Source of the DNA: a virus | Length of the DNA stretch: 21,895 bases | IMG/VR virus record: IMGVR_UViG_3300042448_000609 | Location: 1-21,895 of that record | Direction: 5' to 3' (one strand) | In this document: positions 1 through 6,122 of the stretch, piece after piece | How positions within the stretch are numbered: position 1 is the stretch's first letter | Layout of the letters: every line of letters begins with the position of its first letter | The notes under the pieces: generated by a model | What the model was told of the DNA's origin: nothing | Databases searched by the model: none | The model's input: only the letters and a program-made list of their open reading frames with translations | Position numbers and translations under genes: made by a program

Positions 1-948
1 CCATGCACCATCATTTGGATTTACATCAGCATTAAATCTTACCTGAACCATTTGAGTAGAAGCATCTTGTTGTGGAAATGGTCTTAAATCCCAAGCAATA
101 TCTAAACTTGTTCCAGTAGTTGAATATGTAATTCCAGTTCCTGTACTCCAAGTAGTCCAGTCCCATCCAGCAATAGATACTGAAGGTGCGCCTGGAGTTG
201 TGTGATAAACCCATCCTTCATTTGTTCCAAATGTTATTGTTGCATTTGATCCAACAAACACATTATTATAAAGAGTTCCACCCATTTGCATTCCGAATGG
301 AAGATTCATTTGAACACCAGCATCGTCTACGCCAGCCAAAACGTTGACTGTTGTTCCAATAGTGGCTTGTAAATTATTGACTGCTGTTTGAGCAGCATCA
401 ATAGCAAGGTTTGCCTGTGTTAATTCTGTTTGTGCAGTTGCTTGTGCTGTAACTGCTTCTGTTTTTGCAACTACGGCTTCAGATATTGCTGTCTGGGCCT
501 CTGTTATTTGTGTTGTTATATTATTTATAGCGGTAGTTGCAGTAGTTACTGTAGCCTTTGCATCTTGAACTACCTGAGAACTTTGATCTATTGGAGTAAC
601 AGATAAATCAACATTACTAATAGTATTAATAGCAGTTTGAACATTATTTATTTCTGTATTAGCCAAAGATATTTTTGATGTTATTTCTGCCGTGACAGAT
701 TGGGCTTGGGAATATTCGGTTTGTGCTTGTGTTACCTCTATCAAGGCATTGTTTGTGGCTGTAATAGCCTGCTGGACCTCTGTTGTAGCAGTAGAAAGAG
801 CAGAGTTAACTGCCTGTTGAGCAGGGCTTAGAACAACCTGCTCTTGATTTTCTGTAGCCCCAGCATGGTCTGGTGCCATTATTCCAAAAACTGTAACGCA
901 TAGCCCTACCCCAAAGCCCATTAACAGTTTGCGCTTTAGGTTTTTCAA
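1..948 (-). CDS. Secreted Ala/Thr-rich coiled-coil protein, 3' end beyond window
   Basis: The frame is open for 316 codons and runs off the left edge. I place the start at a TTG (948-946) because an in-frame stop lies just upstream and AGGAG (965-961) precedes it by 12 nt. The first ATG (921) would lose the basic N-terminus. Residues 1-31 look like a Sec signal peptide: a Lys/Arg-rich start, a hydrophobic core (LLMGFGVGLCVTVFGIMA) and an AGA cleavage site. Residues about 40-210 are rich in Ala, Thr, Gln, Ile and Val, with degenerate repeats such as AQTAISEA and AIDAAQTAVNN that suggest a long coiled coil. After that comes a beta-rich, Trp-rich region (FGMQMGGTLYNNVFVGSNAT, SIAGWDWTTW) faintly like NIDO-type domains. 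The protein is probably exported and sits at the host surface. Its function is unknown. A separate promoter (985-1013) suggests independent expression. Confidence 0.8.
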   Translation of the reverse strand, partial: MKNLKRKLLMGFGVGLCVTVFGIMAPDHAGATENQEQVVLSPAQQAVNSALSTATTEVQQAITATNNALIEVTQAQTEYSQAQSVTAEITSKISLANTEINNVQTAINTISNVDLSVTPIDQSSQVVQDAKATVTTATTAINNITTQITEAQTAISEAVVAKTEAVTAQATAQTELTQANLAIDAAQTAVNNLQATIGTTVNVLAGVDDAGVQMNLPFGMQMGGTLYNNVFVGSNATITFGTNEGWVYHTTPGAPSVSIAGWDWTTWSTGTGITYSTTGTSLDIAWDLRPFPQQDASTQMVQVRFNADVNPNDGAW

Positions 949-1024: not shown

Positions 1025-1054
1025 AAAAAAGAGGGCAGAGATTAGTCTGCCCCC
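1025..1054 (-). terminator. Rho-independent terminator after the S-layer-like gene
   Basis: A perfect 7-bp inverted repeat, GGGCAGA (1033-1039) and TCTGCCC (1046-1052) with a 6-nt loop, is followed on the minus strand by a run of six T (positions 1030-1025). It lies 16 nt past the stop codon of the gene ending at 1070. It should end transcripts arriving from the terminase/surface-protein side and insulate the next promoter. It is the only clear intrinsic terminator I saw in the window. Confidence 0.85.
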
Positions 1055-1069
1055 TAATTTATTAAGAAT

Positions 1070-2680
1070 TTACTTCTTTAGAAGCAACTTCTGTAGTGCT
1101 GCAATCTGCTTGTTGATTGTTGCAATAAGTGAAACAATCATCTTTAGGATTTCAGCATTAGATACAGTAGCAGTTGATTCTGTTACTTTGTATGAAACTA
1201 CCTTAGCAGAATCTGTTGAAACATATGCAGGTAGATCAACTACTGCATTAAATGCTCCAGCATTGTTGCCAACGGTAAACTGATAAGTCTTTGATCCGTT
1301 TGCAAATGTATCTGTTGAGGTTGCTGTTCCAACTGGTGTCATTCCACCAGCAGAGATTGCTACTCCAGTTCCAAGTGTTGCTGCATCATGCACCTTAGCA
1401 CCTGAAATATCAGTTGCTGATACAGTTAATTTTGCAATTTCGCCTGGAAGGTATGATTCCTTATCAAACTTTGCTGTGTACTTATTAACACCTTGACCAC
1501 AACGAGCATCAAACTCATTTGAGTAGATAACTGTTAGATCTGAAAGAGTATGTTGAATGCGTACCTTTGTTGATCCTGATGTAGCAGCGCATGTCCAACC
1601 ACCAGTTTGTACTGCTGTAGCAGATGATGCTCCAGCAACAGAAACAGCAGTTACTTGTGCGTTGTACTTTGTGGTATCAGCAGTTGGAGTAACTCCAGCC
1701 AATTGATTACCAGCAGCATCCTTGACTACAAAGTCATAGGTGCCTGTACGTGCTCCACCAGCCTGTGCAATGTCTTCACCAGAAACTACAATAGATGCAG
1801 CCTGTCCAGTGAATGTAATTGACTTAGTTGTTAATACTGTTCCATTGAATGAAACTGTAATTGTTGTTGCTACTGGCTTGTTTGCATTAGCAGTACCCTG
1901 CTTTACGTGGAGAACTCCACCAACACCCGTCTTAGCAGCAAATGAAACCTGAGTGCTTGGAGCACCGTCCCATGCAACAACTGCTCCACCTGTAACAGAT
2001 GCCTGTAGAACACCATTTGTTGAGAGAGTAGCGTCATATGCGTCTTTTGCAAGAACGTTAACATAACCTGTTCCATCATTAACAACTGTTGTTGAACCAG
2101 CAACATCTGCGTTAGAAGCAAGAGTTCCTGCTGTTGAAGTATCTTGAACACGTCCAAAACTGTTTGCTACAGAAAGAATATTTGTCTTTGCAACAGTTCC
2201 AGCATAAATTGTTTTGATATCAACTGTAGAAGTGGTTGAGCCAACCTTCTTCTTTTGAGTTACTGTTACAGTGCCTGCACCGTTAACAGTTAACTTAACA
2301 TTTGTAGGCAATACAACTGCTGTTGAAGTTGTTGCTGTAAATGTAAATGTTTTACCTAAATTGGTAAGTGTTACCCCTGTAGGGTTTGATCCTGCTGCTG
2401 TGTAATCAGTAAATGTTGCAGGGCCAGAAATCTCTAGTGAGAGATTGTCGTCTGCTGTAGCAGCCAAAGACTCGCTAGTTGTTAAAGCAAGTACTGCGTT
2501 AACTCCAGCCTCTGCCTTAGTTGTGTCTGCCAATACTGTTACTCCACGAGCACCTGCAGCCAACGAATCGGATAGTACATATCCGTTAGTTACTGCTGCT
2601 TGAGCCTGCGGAACTGCAACAAAGAATGTGCTTGCTACTGCTGCAGCCGTAACAAGTGCGATCTTCTTAAATGAATTCAT
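1070..2680 (-). CDS. Secreted S-layer-like surface protein with Ig-like domains
   Basis: This 536-residue protein has a classic Sec signal peptide at residues 1-28: MNSFKK, a hydrophobic Ala/Val stretch, then the cleavage site QAQA|AV. The mature part is rich in Ala, Thr, Val, Gly and Ser and looks like several beta-sandwich (bacterial Ig-like) units, for example TYDFVVKDAAGNQLAGV and YLPGEIAKLTVSATD. Only two Cys (in GGWTCAATS and DARCGQG) are seen in the mature part, possibly a disulfide. It ends in an amphipathic helix (ILKMIVSLIATINKQIAAL) followed by basic residues, which could oligomerise or anchor it. From memory, surface proteins of freshwater acI Actinobacteria have similar C-terminal helices. 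A strong AAGGAG lies 4 nt before the ATG, and a terminator follows at 1025-1054. Sampled lines are GC-richer than the neighbours. It may be a host-derived or host-mimicking surface layer protein. The role is inferred. Confidence 0.85.
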   Translation of the reverse strand: MNSFKKIALVTAAAVASTFFVAVPQAQAAVTNGYVLSDSLAAGARGVTVLADTTKAEAGVNAVLALTTSESLAATADDNLSLEISGPATFTDYTAAGSNPTGVTLTNLGKTFTFTATTSTAVVLPTNVKLTVNGAGTVTVTQKKKVGSTTSTVDIKTIYAGTVAKTNILSVANSFGRVQDTSTAGTLASNADVAGSTTVVNDGTGYVNVLAKDAYDATLSTNGVLQASVTGGAVVAWDGAPSTQVSFAAKTGVGGVLHVKQGTANANKPVATTITVSFNGTVLTTKSITFTGQAASIVVSGEDIAQAGGARTGTYDFVVKDAAGNQLAGVTPTADTTKYNAQVTAVSVAGASSATAVQTGGWTCAATSGSTKVRIQHTLSDLTVIYSNEFDARCGQGVNKYTAKFDKESYLPGEIAKLTVSATDISGAKVHDAATLGTGVAISAGGMTPVGTATSTDTFANGSKTYQFTVGNNAGAFNAVVDLPAYVSTDSAKVVSYKVTESTATVSNAEILKMIVSLIATINKQIAALQKLLLKK

Positions 2681-2696
2681 CTTTCTCCTTGTTTAG

Positions 2697-2725
2697 TTTA
2701 TATTATGTTTAATCTATCAAGAAAA
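2697..2725 (-). promoter_or_regulatory. Possible promoter for the S-layer-like gene (weak -35)
   Basis: A -10-like TATAAA (2702-2697) overlaps the terminase stop codon. It would start transcription near 2690, leaving a leader of about 10 nt that begins at the AAGGAG ribosome site. The hexamer at the right distance (TTTTCT, 2725-2720) is a poor -35, and the better TTGATA (2720-2715) is only 12 bp away. The idea rests mainly on the -10 and on this gene being a separate cargo with its own terminator. Confidence 0.3.
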
Positions 2726-4470
2726 TCCCTAACATCTTCAGGCATTTCCTTGTTATCCAATTCTACCATAGCCTTCTGCTTCTCTGCAAGTCGTGTAGAG
2801 GAAGACCAGGTATGAATATCAATCTCAAGATTAGTATCCTTTGGTGTATGAGAGATGGCACCAAAAACAGCACCACATACAGCATCTGCTAAATCTTTAG
2901 ATTTTTTTCTAGGGTGATCAACACGATTACCCTTCATTATTTTTAATTCTGACATTTCTTCTAACAATAATGGAATCATAGGAATGGCAACACGCTCTTC
3001 ATAAATCATCATTGCTAAATCTTCATAATGTTTTTTAGCAACAGAAACAGTATCAGTTCTTATTCCTACTGCTTTTAATTCATTTTGAATATCAAATGAT
3101 TGCCAACGGTCAAAAGACACAATGCCAATATTAAAACCCTGTCTACGTAGATTAATGATCCATTGTTTTACCTCAGAAAGATTAACTGGACCTTCTGACT
3201 TCGGTTCCCACCATGCAACTGCATCTACTATTACGATTGGGGCCACCTGTTCATAATCTTTAATTACCTGAATATTTACCCACTTATCTACGTGTGCAAT
3301 TGCTACCGCACACTTATCGTGTTTTTGTGCAAGGTCAGCGTGTATGTAATAAACTTTATCTGGATCTGGTTTAAAGTTTTCTGAGAATCTTCTAAAACTA
3401 TCAACAGGGTTTGCTAGCGTCATACATTTTATTAACTTATCTTTTTGTTTAAAAAATGCATCTGATGAGTATGTTGGCGTACATAGAAAACGCATCATTG
3501 CATCACCAAGATCTGTTAAAAACGCAATTTTAAAATCATCTATTTTACGAGTAGGATTTACTTCCCATGTTGGACGCTTAAGAGCCAAAACTTTTGGAAT
3601 CTTGTAAGAAAGAATGTGGTCTTCTTCCCAAGTAATTTCAAACTCATTATCTGGTCCTTCTGGCAACTCTTCATTAATAATAAACTTATGTCTACGCTCT
3701 ATCGTTTCTTTATCTGCAATAACAGAATCATATCTTTGAGAAATATAATCACCTTGATAACGTGGGAACGAAAGAAGAACTACCTTACCAAGATCAGGAA
3801 AACGAGAATCTACTGTACCACGAAATGCTTTATAAATATTTTCTGCAGTCTTACCTTGTTCGTTGCCTGTTCCGACTTCAGATGCAAAACCAGAAATTTC
3901 ATCAAGAACAGCCATGAATAAGTTTAAACCTTCGTGTGATTCTCTTTCTGAGTGTCCAGAGTAAACAGTAATTGCTTTATCAAATTCAACTGAATCTGCT
4001 TTTGGGTTATACTTTCCAGCAAACCAAGGGGACTTTTCAATCTTAGTTTTAAAACCTTTAAAAAAAACATTTTTAGCCTGTTGTGCGTTAATCGCTACGT
4101 TAATAATATCTATAGCATCTCCAGATGGTTTACCATAGTATGATGCTGGATCTTTAAGGCATAACAGTTTATACACTACATATGCACAGGCTACTGTTGA
4201 TACGAAATCTTTACCGCTACCCTTGCCAAGTTGAAGAATAATTTCATTTTTAGTATACTTTGCAAAATAGGCAGAGCCTTCTGCTTCGCCCATAATCTCT
4301 ATCAAATCTTCTTTACGATAGATTTGACTCATTGCCTCAACAATGTCATATTGAATATTAGAAAGTTGTGGTTGTCCTAAATAGTCTGGAGACTCAACAA
4401 ATGTTTTAGCATCAACTGGCTTTTCAATAAAATGATTTTCTTTAAGAACTTCAAAAAAATCATTGAACAT
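2698..4470 (-). CDS. terL: Terminase large subunit (ATPase and nuclease)
   Basis: TerL is the DNA-packaging motor: an ATPase pumps DNA into the prohead and a C-terminal RNase H-like nuclease cuts the concatemer. With the ATG at 4470 the protein has 590 residues, normal for the family. Visible motifs are Walker A ILQLGKGSGKD (about residues 78-88), Walker B LFMAVLDEIS (about 184-193), and nuclease acidic residues in YYIHADLAQKHD (about 375), GIVSFDRWQ (about 455) and SKDLADAVCGAV (about 540). The frame continues 9 nt upstream to a TTG, but ATG is preferred. There is no good ribosome site, and the 11-nt overlap with the putative small subunit gene suggests translational coupling. The downstream neighbour is a secreted protein rather than the usual portal, so portal and capsid genes must be elsewhere. 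Confidence 0.95.
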   Translation of the reverse strand: MFNDFFEVLKENHFIEKPVDAKTFVESPDYLGQPQLSNIQYDIVEAMSQIYRKEDLIEIMGEAEGSAYFAKYTKNEIILQLGKGSGKDFVSTVACAYVVYKLLCLKDPASYYGKPSGDAIDIINVAINAQQAKNVFFKGFKTKIEKSPWFAGKYNPKADSVEFDKAITVYSGHSERESHEGLNLFMAVLDEISGFASEVGTGNEQGKTAENIYKAFRGTVDSRFPDLGKVVLLSFPRYQGDYISQRYDSVIADKETIERRHKFIINEELPEGPDNEFEITWEEDHILSYKIPKVLALKRPTWEVNPTRKIDDFKIAFLTDLGDAMMRFLCTPTYSSDAFFKQKDKLIKCMTLANPVDSFRRFSENFKPDPDKVYYIHADLAQKHDKCAVAIAHVDKWVNIQVIKDYEQVAPIVIVDAVAWWEPKSEGPVNLSEVKQWIINLRRQGFNIGIVSFDRWQSFDIQNELKAVGIRTDTVSVAKKHYEDLAMMIYEERVAIPMIPLLLEEMSELKIMKGNRVDHPRKKSKDLADAVCGAVFGAISHTPKDTNLEIDIHTWSSSTRLAEKQKAMVELDNKEMPEDVRDFLDRLNII

Positions 4471-4996
4471 CGTGGACAACGGTAATCACTTCGCCTTCTT
4501 TAGCAATTGCTGAAAGTCTTTGCATAATAATGTCACGAACTTCTGGATGCGATGATGCAATATCTCTAAGGATTCCAACAAGAACTTCTTGCCTGCGTTC
4601 AATCTCAACCATTTCTTCTGCAAGTTCTTTATTTTCAAGCAAACCAGCCTTTTGCAACATATCAATTCTTTTAGATTCAATATCCATAACAAGTTTAATA
4701 CCTGCTGTTTTTGCACTCAGGTTATTTGTTAGACTTGACTCATCAATAACTTCATATGCCTTTGTAATAAGTTTTGTATAGTGTGTATCTGCACCAACCA
4801 ACGCTTCTTTAGCACGTGCACGAATAGCATCATTTGCAGATGCCATCACCTTCCACTCATTAATTAGTTGAACAACACGAGTGCGTGGAATATCAAGTTC
4901 TTTAGAAATAACCGTTGGGTCATTACCTTTTAGATATTCAGTTACAACAGTATTAACTTGGTCTAGGTGGTCTACTAAATCTTTTTCAGTTGACAT
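4460..4996 (-). CDS. terS: Putative terminase small subunit
   Basis: This 178-residue, mostly helical protein sits directly before terL and overlaps it by 11 nt. Residues about 20-50 form a helix-turn-helix (DPTVISKELDIPRTRVVQLI), as expected for the DNA-recognition domain of TerS. The rest is helical (IKLVMDIESKRIDMLQKAGL, MVEIERRQEVLVGILRDI), which suits the oligomerisation core of a ring-forming small terminase. AAAGGA lies 7 nt before the ATG, and the start overlaps the upstream gene by 11 nt. The call relies on position, size and fold pattern because small terminases are poorly conserved. A different DNA-binding regulator is possible but less likely. Confidence 0.7.
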   Translation of the reverse strand: MSTEKDLVDHLDQVNTVVTEYLKGNDPTVISKELDIPRTRVVQLINEWKVMASANDAIRARAKEALVGADTHYTKLITKAYEVIDESSLTNNLSAKTAGIKLVMDIESKRIDMLQKAGLLENKELAEEMVEIERRQEVLVGILRDIASSHPEVRDIIMQRLSAIAKEGEVITVVHDVQ

Positions 4997-5321
4997 TTTT
5001 TTCCTTTGCTATTTTAAGCAAAACCAAATATCCAATAAGGTCATCAATATCGTTGTCTCCAACGTATTCAGTACCTTTCATTAGTCTACTTAACTTATCA
5101 TCAATTCTAACCCTAAGTTGTTCTGCTGGATCTGCCTTGCTAAAAATTCTAACTGGATCTAAAGCAGAATCTCCGTAAGCAATATTTTTTTCAATAAGCA
5201 TGTGTGCAATAGAGTGACACGTTGCCCAGATACTAGGACCAGATGGGGCACCAACTGATTTTAAATATAAATCTTGACAACTAAAATCTTTTACATCTTC
5301 ATAGACTGGTTGAAGTTTCAT
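4986..5321 (-). CDS. Nmad1/DUF1599-like nucleotide-modification-associated protein
   Basis: This 111-residue protein contains a pattern I recognise from the DUF1599 family (nucleotide modification associated domain 1): EKNIAYGDSALDPVRIF, then RIDDKLSRLM, then DDLIGYLVLLKIA. Together these are conserved acidic and basic residues in an all-helical fold. Such proteins occur in phages, often near DNA-base or nucleotide metabolism genes, but their exact activity is not settled. The start codon overlaps the preceding stop by 4 nt (ATGA), and the 3' end overlaps the next gene. No base-modifying enzyme such as a thymidylate-synthase-like hydroxymethylase lies in this window, so its partner, if any, must be elsewhere or in the host. 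Confidence 0.7.
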   Translation of the reverse strand: MKLQPVYEDVKDFSCQDLYLKSVGAPSGPSIWATCHSIAHMLIEKNIAYGDSALDPVRIFSKADPAEQLRVRIDDKLSRLMKGTEYVGDNDIDDLIGYLVLLKIAKEKNVN

Positions 5322-5473
5322 CGTTTAGACTTCCTTAGTCCAAATTTTGCAAGGTAGACATAAACAGTTTCCACGGTACATCCACACTCCTTTGCAATTT
5401 CTTCAGGAGTCTTTTTATCCATAACATAGCGCTTACGCATAAAAATCTCTGATGTATATAGTTTAGCAGCCAT
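5318..5473 (-). CDS. Small helix-turn-helix protein
   Basis: This is a 51-residue basic protein. Residues about 22-48 form a homeodomain-like helix-turn-helix (TPEEIAKECGCTVETVYVYL) followed by a Lys/Arg-rich end. I use the ATG at 5473 (MAAKLYTSEI), 4 nt after the preceding stop. The frame is open farther upstream, but that would overlap the previous gene by more than 40 nt. There is no clear ribosome site, so translation is probably by reinitiation. It could be a small transcription regulator or a DNA-end recognition protein, given its place next to the terminase genes. The exact role is unknown. Confidence 0.65.
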   Translation of the reverse strand: MAAKLYTSEIFMRKRYVMDKKTPEEIAKECGCTVETVYVYLAKFGLRKSKR

Positions 5474-5477
5474 ACTA

Positions 5478-6122
5478 TTATTTGTCAACTTCCGACTCAG
5501 AAATGTCATAATCATAAGCATTTGAGTCTTCTAAAACCCATTTATCATAACTTTCAACATCCCATTTGTTTGTATTAATAAGTCTTTGAATAACTAGATC
5601 TTTTTTAGTTACAAATGATGGCTCTTTTAATCTAATACGGTTATTAGGCTGTACTGCAAAGTTTCCATCATCTCTTTGAATAACATGCCCACATTTATGT
5701 TGCCCTGGATTTTCTGAGTATCCGTCATCTAAAATATTACTTTCTGGATTATGCCAATCTAAAGTAAATAAATATTTTCCACCAACATTATTTTTATTTC
5801 TATCTATATATGACATCCTCATATTGCTTAAATTCTCAAACTTTGTAACTGCTATATGTGGACTAAAAGAATTCCACAGAACAAGATTATAAATTGGTTC
5901 TTCTGGAACACCTGGCTTAGTACAAAATGCATTAATTGGCATTCTCCACCAAATACCACCATCTTCCATTAAAAAATGAAATAGAGGACTTCTGCTTTTA
6001 ATACTAGAAACACCAAAAATTACACATGGAAAATATTTATCATGACTATCTTCTTGGTCTCTTAAAAAATTACCACGAACATAACATTCAATTGGTGGAA
6101 TATTTGCATTTAATTCTGGCAC
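5478..6122 (-). CDS. Conserved phage-type protein of unknown function
   Basis: This is a 214-residue protein with a GTG start (6122-6120) that overlaps the preceding TAG by one base. AAAGGAG lies about 9 nt upstream, which supports the GTG. The N-terminal half is rich in aromatic residues and looks beta-rich (CYVRGNFLRDQ, FPCVIFGVSS, FLMEDGGIWWRMPINAFC). It resembles uncharacterised proteins I recall from environmental phages. A single HKCGH segment is present, but no complete metal site is evident, and the C-terminus is acidic. No signal peptide or membrane segment is seen. I do not recognise an enzymatic family. Confidence 0.75.
   Translation of the reverse strand: MPELNANIPPIECYVRGNFLRDQEDSHDKYFPCVIFGVSSIKSRSPLFHFLMEDGGIWWRMPINAFCTKPGVPEEPIYNLVLWNSFSPHIAVTKFENLSNMRMSYIDRNKNNVGGKYLFTLDWHNPESNILDDGYSENPGQHKCGHVIQRDDGNFAVQPNNRIRLKEPSFVTKKDLVIQRLINTNKWDVESYDKWVLEDSNAYDYDISESEVDK

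Follow-up and report, generated by a model that had tools for sequence, protein, structure and literature searches.

The gene directly downstream of the terminase large subunit gene (terL) in the phage studied here encodes a protein of 536 aa, hereafter Sprot, which carries a putative Sec signal peptide, is homologous to a family of actinobacterial proteins, and has an ectodomain that is exchanged as a cassette between the members of this family of uncultured phages. With a probability of about one half, we regard Sprot as an exported S-layer-like homologue of the host coat that replaces or masks this coat, most likely for superinfection exclusion. 'S-layer-like' is the term we chose for a protein known here from its sequence and predicted structure, and from these we infer its surface location and function.

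RESULTS

Sprot is a phage gene that mostly lies directly behind terL

The window, by which we mean the whole stretch of 21,895 nucleotides that was analysed, is part of a phage record. Its minus strand, read from the high-coordinate end, carries tail genes, helicase, primase, an SSB-like protein, DNA polymerase III alpha, RecA, an exonuclease, RuvC, terL, Sprot and a second signal-peptide protein. The Sprot reading frame (1070..2680, minus strand) has an ATG start; it is preceded by a ribosome-binding site AAGGAG (2685..2690, minus strand) and begins 17 nt after the stop codon of terL (2698..4479, minus strand), exactly where the initial annotation had placed it. On its 3' side lies a predicted intrinsic terminator with a 10-pair stem and a T run (1030..1055, minus strand), and an Rfam search of the window gave no match. 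The first gene past the terminator (1..948, minus strand) is that of the second signal-peptide protein, which has a coiled coil and is cut by the window edge. Its full-length form in G204 (L131:5501-7978) has 826 aa with a long coiled coil and a hydrophobic C-terminus, and the protein is present in both phage lineages described below; it had no Pfam match over the cut-off, one weak PHROG match and no clear host homologue, with weak partial matches in 3 of 296 genomes.

Two scans of IMG/VR gave at least 153 and at least 114 relatives of Sprot, 80 of which were kept from each, and together they yielded 126 loci on 112 contigs, 14 contigs appearing twice. Among the matches listed, Sprot starts 14–22 nt (median 17) behind the terL stop codon on 93 of the 112 contigs; the other 19 have no terL, have the gene broken or cut by the contig end, or belong to a second lineage (G207, G211 and G213) in which Sprot lies about 4–12 kb further on. 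A terminator-like site follows Sprot on 89 of 101 contigs among the matches listed, and its stems differ by paired changes between the contigs inspected; no such site was found behind Sprot on the second-lineage contigs L026–L031, L033 and L034. Sprot is thus, by its constant distance from terL on most contigs, a genuine phage gene, as the initial annotation had held. In G207 and G213, an S8 subtilase with a signal peptide (L137:6293-7222 and L144:15756-16724, the latter on the minus strand; Pfam E 1.5e-18 and 9.6e-18) is encoded 1.3 kb upstream of Sprot, and it could trim host surface proteins.

The terL product of the window matches the PHROG terminase family (E 3.5e-13) and is 53.5% identical, over its full length, to terminases of Streptomyces phages, among them Yaboi (Stanwilliamsviridae). 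The window phage and Yaboi also agree in the order of their genes from helicase to terL, and since terminase and syntenic core agree, the window phage is related to the Stanwilliamsviridae. Behind terL, however, Yaboi carries an HNH endonuclease where the window phage carries Sprot. The portal, protease, major capsid protein, tape measure and tail genes are grouped upstream, away from Sprot, in G204, G205 and G207, as they also are in Yaboi, and Sprot therefore lies outside the virion cassette. The possibility that Sprot is itself the major capsid or a tail protein was rejected because the structural cassette is complete elsewhere. The whiB gene, used as a mark of actinobacterial phages in the available excerpt of PMC6802176, scored over the cut-off in 9 of 15 longer Sprot-carrying phage records; in the control it did so in 1 of 14 genomes, which was Corynebacterium.

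Signal peptide, domains and predicted structure

The Sec-type signal peptide predicted for Sprot comprises residues 1–28 (2597..2680, minus strand), and its sequence, MNSFKKIALVTAAAVASTFFVAVPQAQA^AV, consists of a basic start and a hydrophobic core followed by the cleavage site AQA, which is of the AxA type. Signal-peptide calls were made with our own n/h/c rule, which was passed by all 78 distinct complete Sprot homologues, including a group (L027 and relatives) with a rather different signal-peptide sequence, as against 2 of 21 chosen window genes, namely Sprot and its neighbour. Because the rule was also passed by 11 of the 96 ORFs of at least 100 aa around or behind terL in four phage records (copies of Sprot and its neighbour included), it is not in itself proof of a signal peptide. 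By the same rule, nevertheless, the Sec signal peptide that had been read from the sequence earlier is borne out. Sprot lacks a lipobox cysteine at the cleavage site; its only cysteines are residues 364 and 394, and both are kept in all of five phage and all of five host sequences, which fits a putative extracellular disulphide.

The structure prediction that the initial annotation had proposed was run with AlphaFold2 on 28 sequences and gave a model of mean pLDDT 80.4 and pTM 0.53, nearly all beta, in which Ig-like domains follow one another up to a single long helix at the C-terminus, residues 508–535 (1076..1159, minus strand). This helix, which also ends some host proteins, is the presumed anchor. 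The model supersedes an earlier, poor fold made without host sequences (pLDDT 65.8). The Ig-like beta repeats noticed earlier are therefore present as domains in the model and absent as sequence repeats, none being found by self-BLAST of Sprot, and the amphipathic helix noticed earlier is recovered with a modest moment of 0.38, which was attained by 2.2% of 5000 shuffles. Fold matches of the AlphaFold2 model include FdeC, invasin, intimin and the S-layer proteins SbsC and Sap; beta-galactosidases and complement proteins are also among the structural matches, and Ig-containing phage tail proteins matched the low-confidence first model (pLDDT 65.8). As this list is mixed, the fold alone gives no verdict on the function of Sprot.

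Pfam returned nothing over the cut-off for Sprot, and hence no recognised wall-anchor domain such as SLH, a domain type that some S-layer proteins lack. PHROG gave no match below E 0.05, INPHARED, a collection that may omit records very near the window, gave none at E 0.01, and a search of the PDB by sequence gave one weak match (E 0.048). As for the phage capsid and tail proteins that the initial annotation had set against its own reading as possible homologues, no annotated one matched by sequence, and the Ig-containing tail proteins did so by low-confidence fold only.

Host homologues in one actinobacterial order

When GTDB genomes were scanned with the phage Sprot family (profile A1), 33 pattern matches were obtained, none of them a relative, and a scan with the C-terminal 44 residues (alignment A2) gave four loci. 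The phage-only profile matched the three genomes found via the C-terminal scan with E 3.4e-47 to 5.2e-19. In one actinobacterial order (that of G001), it matched 5 of 201 genomes: G001 (E 1.6e-41), G024 (1.1e-38), G195 (4.7e-37), G022 (8.8e-29) and, weakly, G054 (6e-4). In G022 and G024, the homologue lies on single contigs of 1.16 and 1.33 Mb, and genomes with such homologues are small (0.8–2.2 Mb). A joint profile (A3) matched 26 of 296 genomes of the order, whereas in the phylum at large it matched 2 of 396, G001 among them; four of the 26 sat in the profile itself and many cover the signal-peptide region only. G019 holds a further full-length homologue (A3, E 2.7e-23) with another C-terminus.

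The homology between phage Sprot and the host family spans most of the length, including the C-terminal helix. Window Sprot and five host proteins are 11–43% identical by segment and about 30% outside the helix, and middle segments are 13–41% identical among the host proteins themselves. The last 31 residues (506–536) are 68–84% identical between phage and host and 55–94% between hosts, and the signal peptide is 48–72% identical between hosts and only 34–37% between phage and host. Thus, outside the signal peptide, Sprot is about as close to the host proteins as these are to each other. The likeness to actinobacterial surface proteins, which the initial annotation had suggested, is in this way recovered by the phage-only profile, and the host proteins look surface-type.

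The host proteins adjoin a sigma factor, an O-antigen ligase or a sugar epimerase, whereas phage Sprot sits behind terL. Pfam found sigma-70 domains for L083, L094 and L118, Wzy_C for L083, L087 and L103, and a sugar epimerase at L092; it gave no match for the membrane protein after the L094 gene, and other neighbours were assigned by likeness. At L083, L094, L103, L118 and L122, a sigma factor with an extended C-terminus adjoins a highly variable protein with a similar signal peptide, an arrangement that looks like a surface-antigen locus with its own regulator. The coat-protein loci L083 and L085 resemble the actinobacterial ones and are found in a 4.3 Mb bin titled Oligoflexia, which probably reflects mis-binning. 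The small genomes, the label Actinomycetota on the L082 record and whiB in 9 of 15 phage records fit a freshwater host of the acI group but do not prove it.

Third-position GC content is alike in Sprot (0.213) and terL (0.219), and unlike that of three host copies (0.28). Sprot is therefore an old phage gene, not a fresh copy of a present host coat, and its recent capture from the present host is disfavoured.

Two C-terminal forms

Sprot sequences end in one of two forms. In form I, found in 65 of 78 distinct sequences, the protein closes with the helix and a basic end; in form II (13 of 78), a tail with the motif ITCVKG and a final basic stretch extends beyond the helix. The form II tail, taken as the last 42 residues of L077, has matches in 199 of 296 genomes of the order, at up to 23 places per genome, and in 6 of 6 host loci inspected, which encode different proteins, it closes the reading frame. 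The form I helix was found in 4 of 296 genomes of the order with one match each, and this rarity led us to reject it as a sorting signal of general use. Each of the two forms is thus also seen at the end of host proteins, and form II is common in the order. The form II tail may sort or anchor proteins; this short two-cysteine tail (last 42 residues of L077; L202–L207) is a candidate for an uncharacterised signal of surface sorting or wall binding.

Exchange of the ectodomain between phages

Phages with nearly the same terminase may carry very different Sprot proteins: L063 and L147 are 99.7% identical in terL, and their Sprot sequences differ by 31% (69% identical). The reverse is seen in G207, G211 and G213, whose terL is 55–56% identical to that of the nearest main-clade phage and whose Sprot is 87.5–88% identical. 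Counting each contig once and taking pairs with terL at least 97.5% identical, Sprot was less than 85% identical in 103 of 190 pairs among the matches listed, and in the same comparison the next gene fell below 85% in 12 of 55 pairs, ruvC in 3 of 61, a 111-aa gene in 5 of 211 and a 178-aa gene in 0 of 234. Segment identities were calculated for 40 random pairs out of the 94 with Sprot less than 80% identical. The median DNA identity fell from 0.94 over the terminal part of terL to 0.89 for the signal peptide and 0.72 for the ectodomain (40 pairs); it was 0.86 over the final 93 nt, for which 36 pairs sharing a tail form were compared, and 0.94 past the stop codon (32 pairs). The ends of the gene hence change less than its middle, yet they too vary; among the pairs that diverge most, taken without regard to tail form, the median dN of the C-terminal segment (0.245) exceeded that of the ectodomain (0.183). 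Along five pairs, sliding identity falls where the Sprot gene begins; in four of them it recovers at the end of the gene or close to it, and in L044/L061 within the gene. A second sharp divergence was seen upstream of terL (window about 5318–6122; L053 versus L068 at about 1900–3400 of L053), around a 214-aa gene and the stretch before the 111-aa gene, and is another likely exchange hot spot.

Clustering of 97 near-complete sequences at 90% identity gave 8 multi-member classes and 3 singletons among the matches listed. In pairs with Sprot 90–99.5% identical, the median dS was 0.235 for Sprot as compared with 0.889 for terL; therefore, alleles have spread more recently than the phage backbones split. 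Median dN/dS values of Sprot were 0.14–0.23, about twice those of terL, and the gene is under purifying selection, not positive selection overall. Across 14 phages, two of them with a truncated copy, Sprot distances were barely correlated with those of the minor tail protein (r 0.18, Mantel 0.036), and tail protein and terL distances gave r 0.79 (14 phages). These comparisons show that the Sprot ectodomain is exchanged between phages as a cassette.

DISCUSSION

In the reading we prefer, Sprot would be made with or after terL, would leave the cell by Sec and would be retained at the surface in the same way as the host coat protein, some alleles perhaps by the C-terminal tail that is common in the host order. 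It might there dilute or cover the host coat and so hide a receptor, with the effect that neither competing phages nor the phage's own progeny would be taken up any more by the infected cell and its debris; the exchanged allele classes would then imply selection for different coat types. The host coat itself may be the phage receptor, by analogy with Clostridioides difficile SlpA (PMC10100898, in the excerpt available). According to the available text of a paper on phage T5 (PMC9586334), exclusion proteins keep progeny from being lost on infected cells and fragments, and they are described there as early. A wider picture, possible and held tentatively, is that lytic phages of small streamlined actinobacteria share a pool of coat alleles whose ectodomain recombines via the less variable ends and flanks, even between phages with 55% terL identity, each phage re-dressing its host in one of several 'serotypes' and thereby controlling phage entry.

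Several results count against masking or replacement of the coat for exclusion. The place of Sprot behind terL suggests late expression, at odds with the early timing of exclusion proteins. The weak coupling to the tail protein (r 0.18), taken as a test of the model of the T5 lipoprotein Llp, lends the exclusion reading no help. Host homologues with the same helix are rare, at 4 of 296 species, which counts against coat replacement. The age of Sprot as a phage gene judged by GC3, the C-terminal dN that is not below that of the ectodomain in the most divergent pairs, and the composition of the A3 matches, with four in the profile and many in the signal-peptide region only, count against it likewise.

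The main rival, which we consider unlikely, is that the phage copy poisons the coat: built into the host lattice as a subunit that is weak or does not fit, it would loosen this lattice ahead of lysis, together with downstream lysis genes. Late expression would suit such a role, and in G204 Sprot is followed by the second signal-peptide protein, a small membrane protein that we read as holin-like (unknown function in PHROG) and a CHAP endolysin; the subtilase with a signal peptide 1.3 kb upstream of Sprot in G207 and G213 points the same way. However, in the main lineage a terminator parts Sprot from the downstream genes, in G207 and G213 the endolysin is about 6 kb away, and poisoning by itself does not account for the many exchanged allele classes. 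The exchange of alleles of a surface coat is also compatible with protection of the infected cell or its debris against threats of another kind than phages, such as grazing by protists or toxins from neighbouring cells, but infection is short, so the gain must be large, and nothing in the locus points there; we hold this to be improbable.

Ig-like domains are common in virion proteins, and phage tail proteins were among the fold matches of the first, low-confidence model, so Sprot could be argued to be a virion or virion-associated adhesin that joins the particle from outside after export. We rate this as very improbable: all 78 homologues have a signal peptide by our rule, the gene stands outside the structural cassette, its inheritance is nearly uncoupled from that of the tail protein, and neither INPHARED (E 0.01; records very near the window may be omitted) nor PHROG (below E 0.05) gave a match. 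That Sprot is a host gene on chimeric contigs, or a functionless passenger, is scarcely credible; many relatives do lie on short contigs of 4–8 kb, but the gene holds the same place on 93 of 112 contigs, is under purifying selection and matches the phage, not the host copies, in third-position composition.

If masking or replacement of the host coat by Sprot is correct, a phage-owned, exchangeable coat would be a concrete mechanism of phage competition for a cell, and the host coat protein would be marked as a likely receptor. If, moreover, the host order is Nanopelagicales (acI), which fits, the bacteria concerned would be abundant freshwater ones, and the cultured Planktophila phage system would be applicable. 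The available excerpt of PMC10202952 describes the Nanopelagicales as abundant in freshwaters with a microdiversity ascribed to phages, and in its account of their first isolated phages mentions no such coat gene.

Our search of the open-licence literature found no paper on a phage coat gene that combines a tested host homologue with shared ends and exchange of alleles, and, in the texts as available, a phage S-layer gene with an exclusion purpose only in PMC9004378. There, gene 23 of methylophage Melnitz, which infects OM43, is a putative S-layer protein, and the authors postulate an altered host surface and protection from superinfection. Like Melnitz, the phage studied here carries an S-layer-type gene and probably infects an aquatic bacterium with a streamlined genome; the host of Melnitz, however, belongs to another phylum, the likeness to Sprot is one of description, and a host homologue, a shared anchor and allele exchange do not appear in the available part of that account. 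T5 Llp (PMC9586334, available in part) is, like Sprot, phage-encoded, exported and envelope-acting, or in the case of Sprot predicted to be so, and we propose the same purpose for both. Llp, by contrast, is a small periplasmic lipoprotein whose gene adjoins the receptor-binding gene pb5, whereas Sprot is a 536-aa Ig-type homologue of a host coat without a lipobox, and its divergence barely follows that of the minor tail protein; this near uncoupling and the probable late timing count against a simple copy of Llp. In C. difficile, where the S-layer cassette types of SlpA serve as phage receptors (PMC10100898, in the part available), the bacterium owns the cassettes, whereas in the case of Sprot the phage carries them, the two being likened by description. 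The idea of a phage S-layer gene for superinfection protection is thus already in print (PMC9004378, as far as its available text goes), and to it the present analysis adds a tested host link and the exchange of the cassette between phages.
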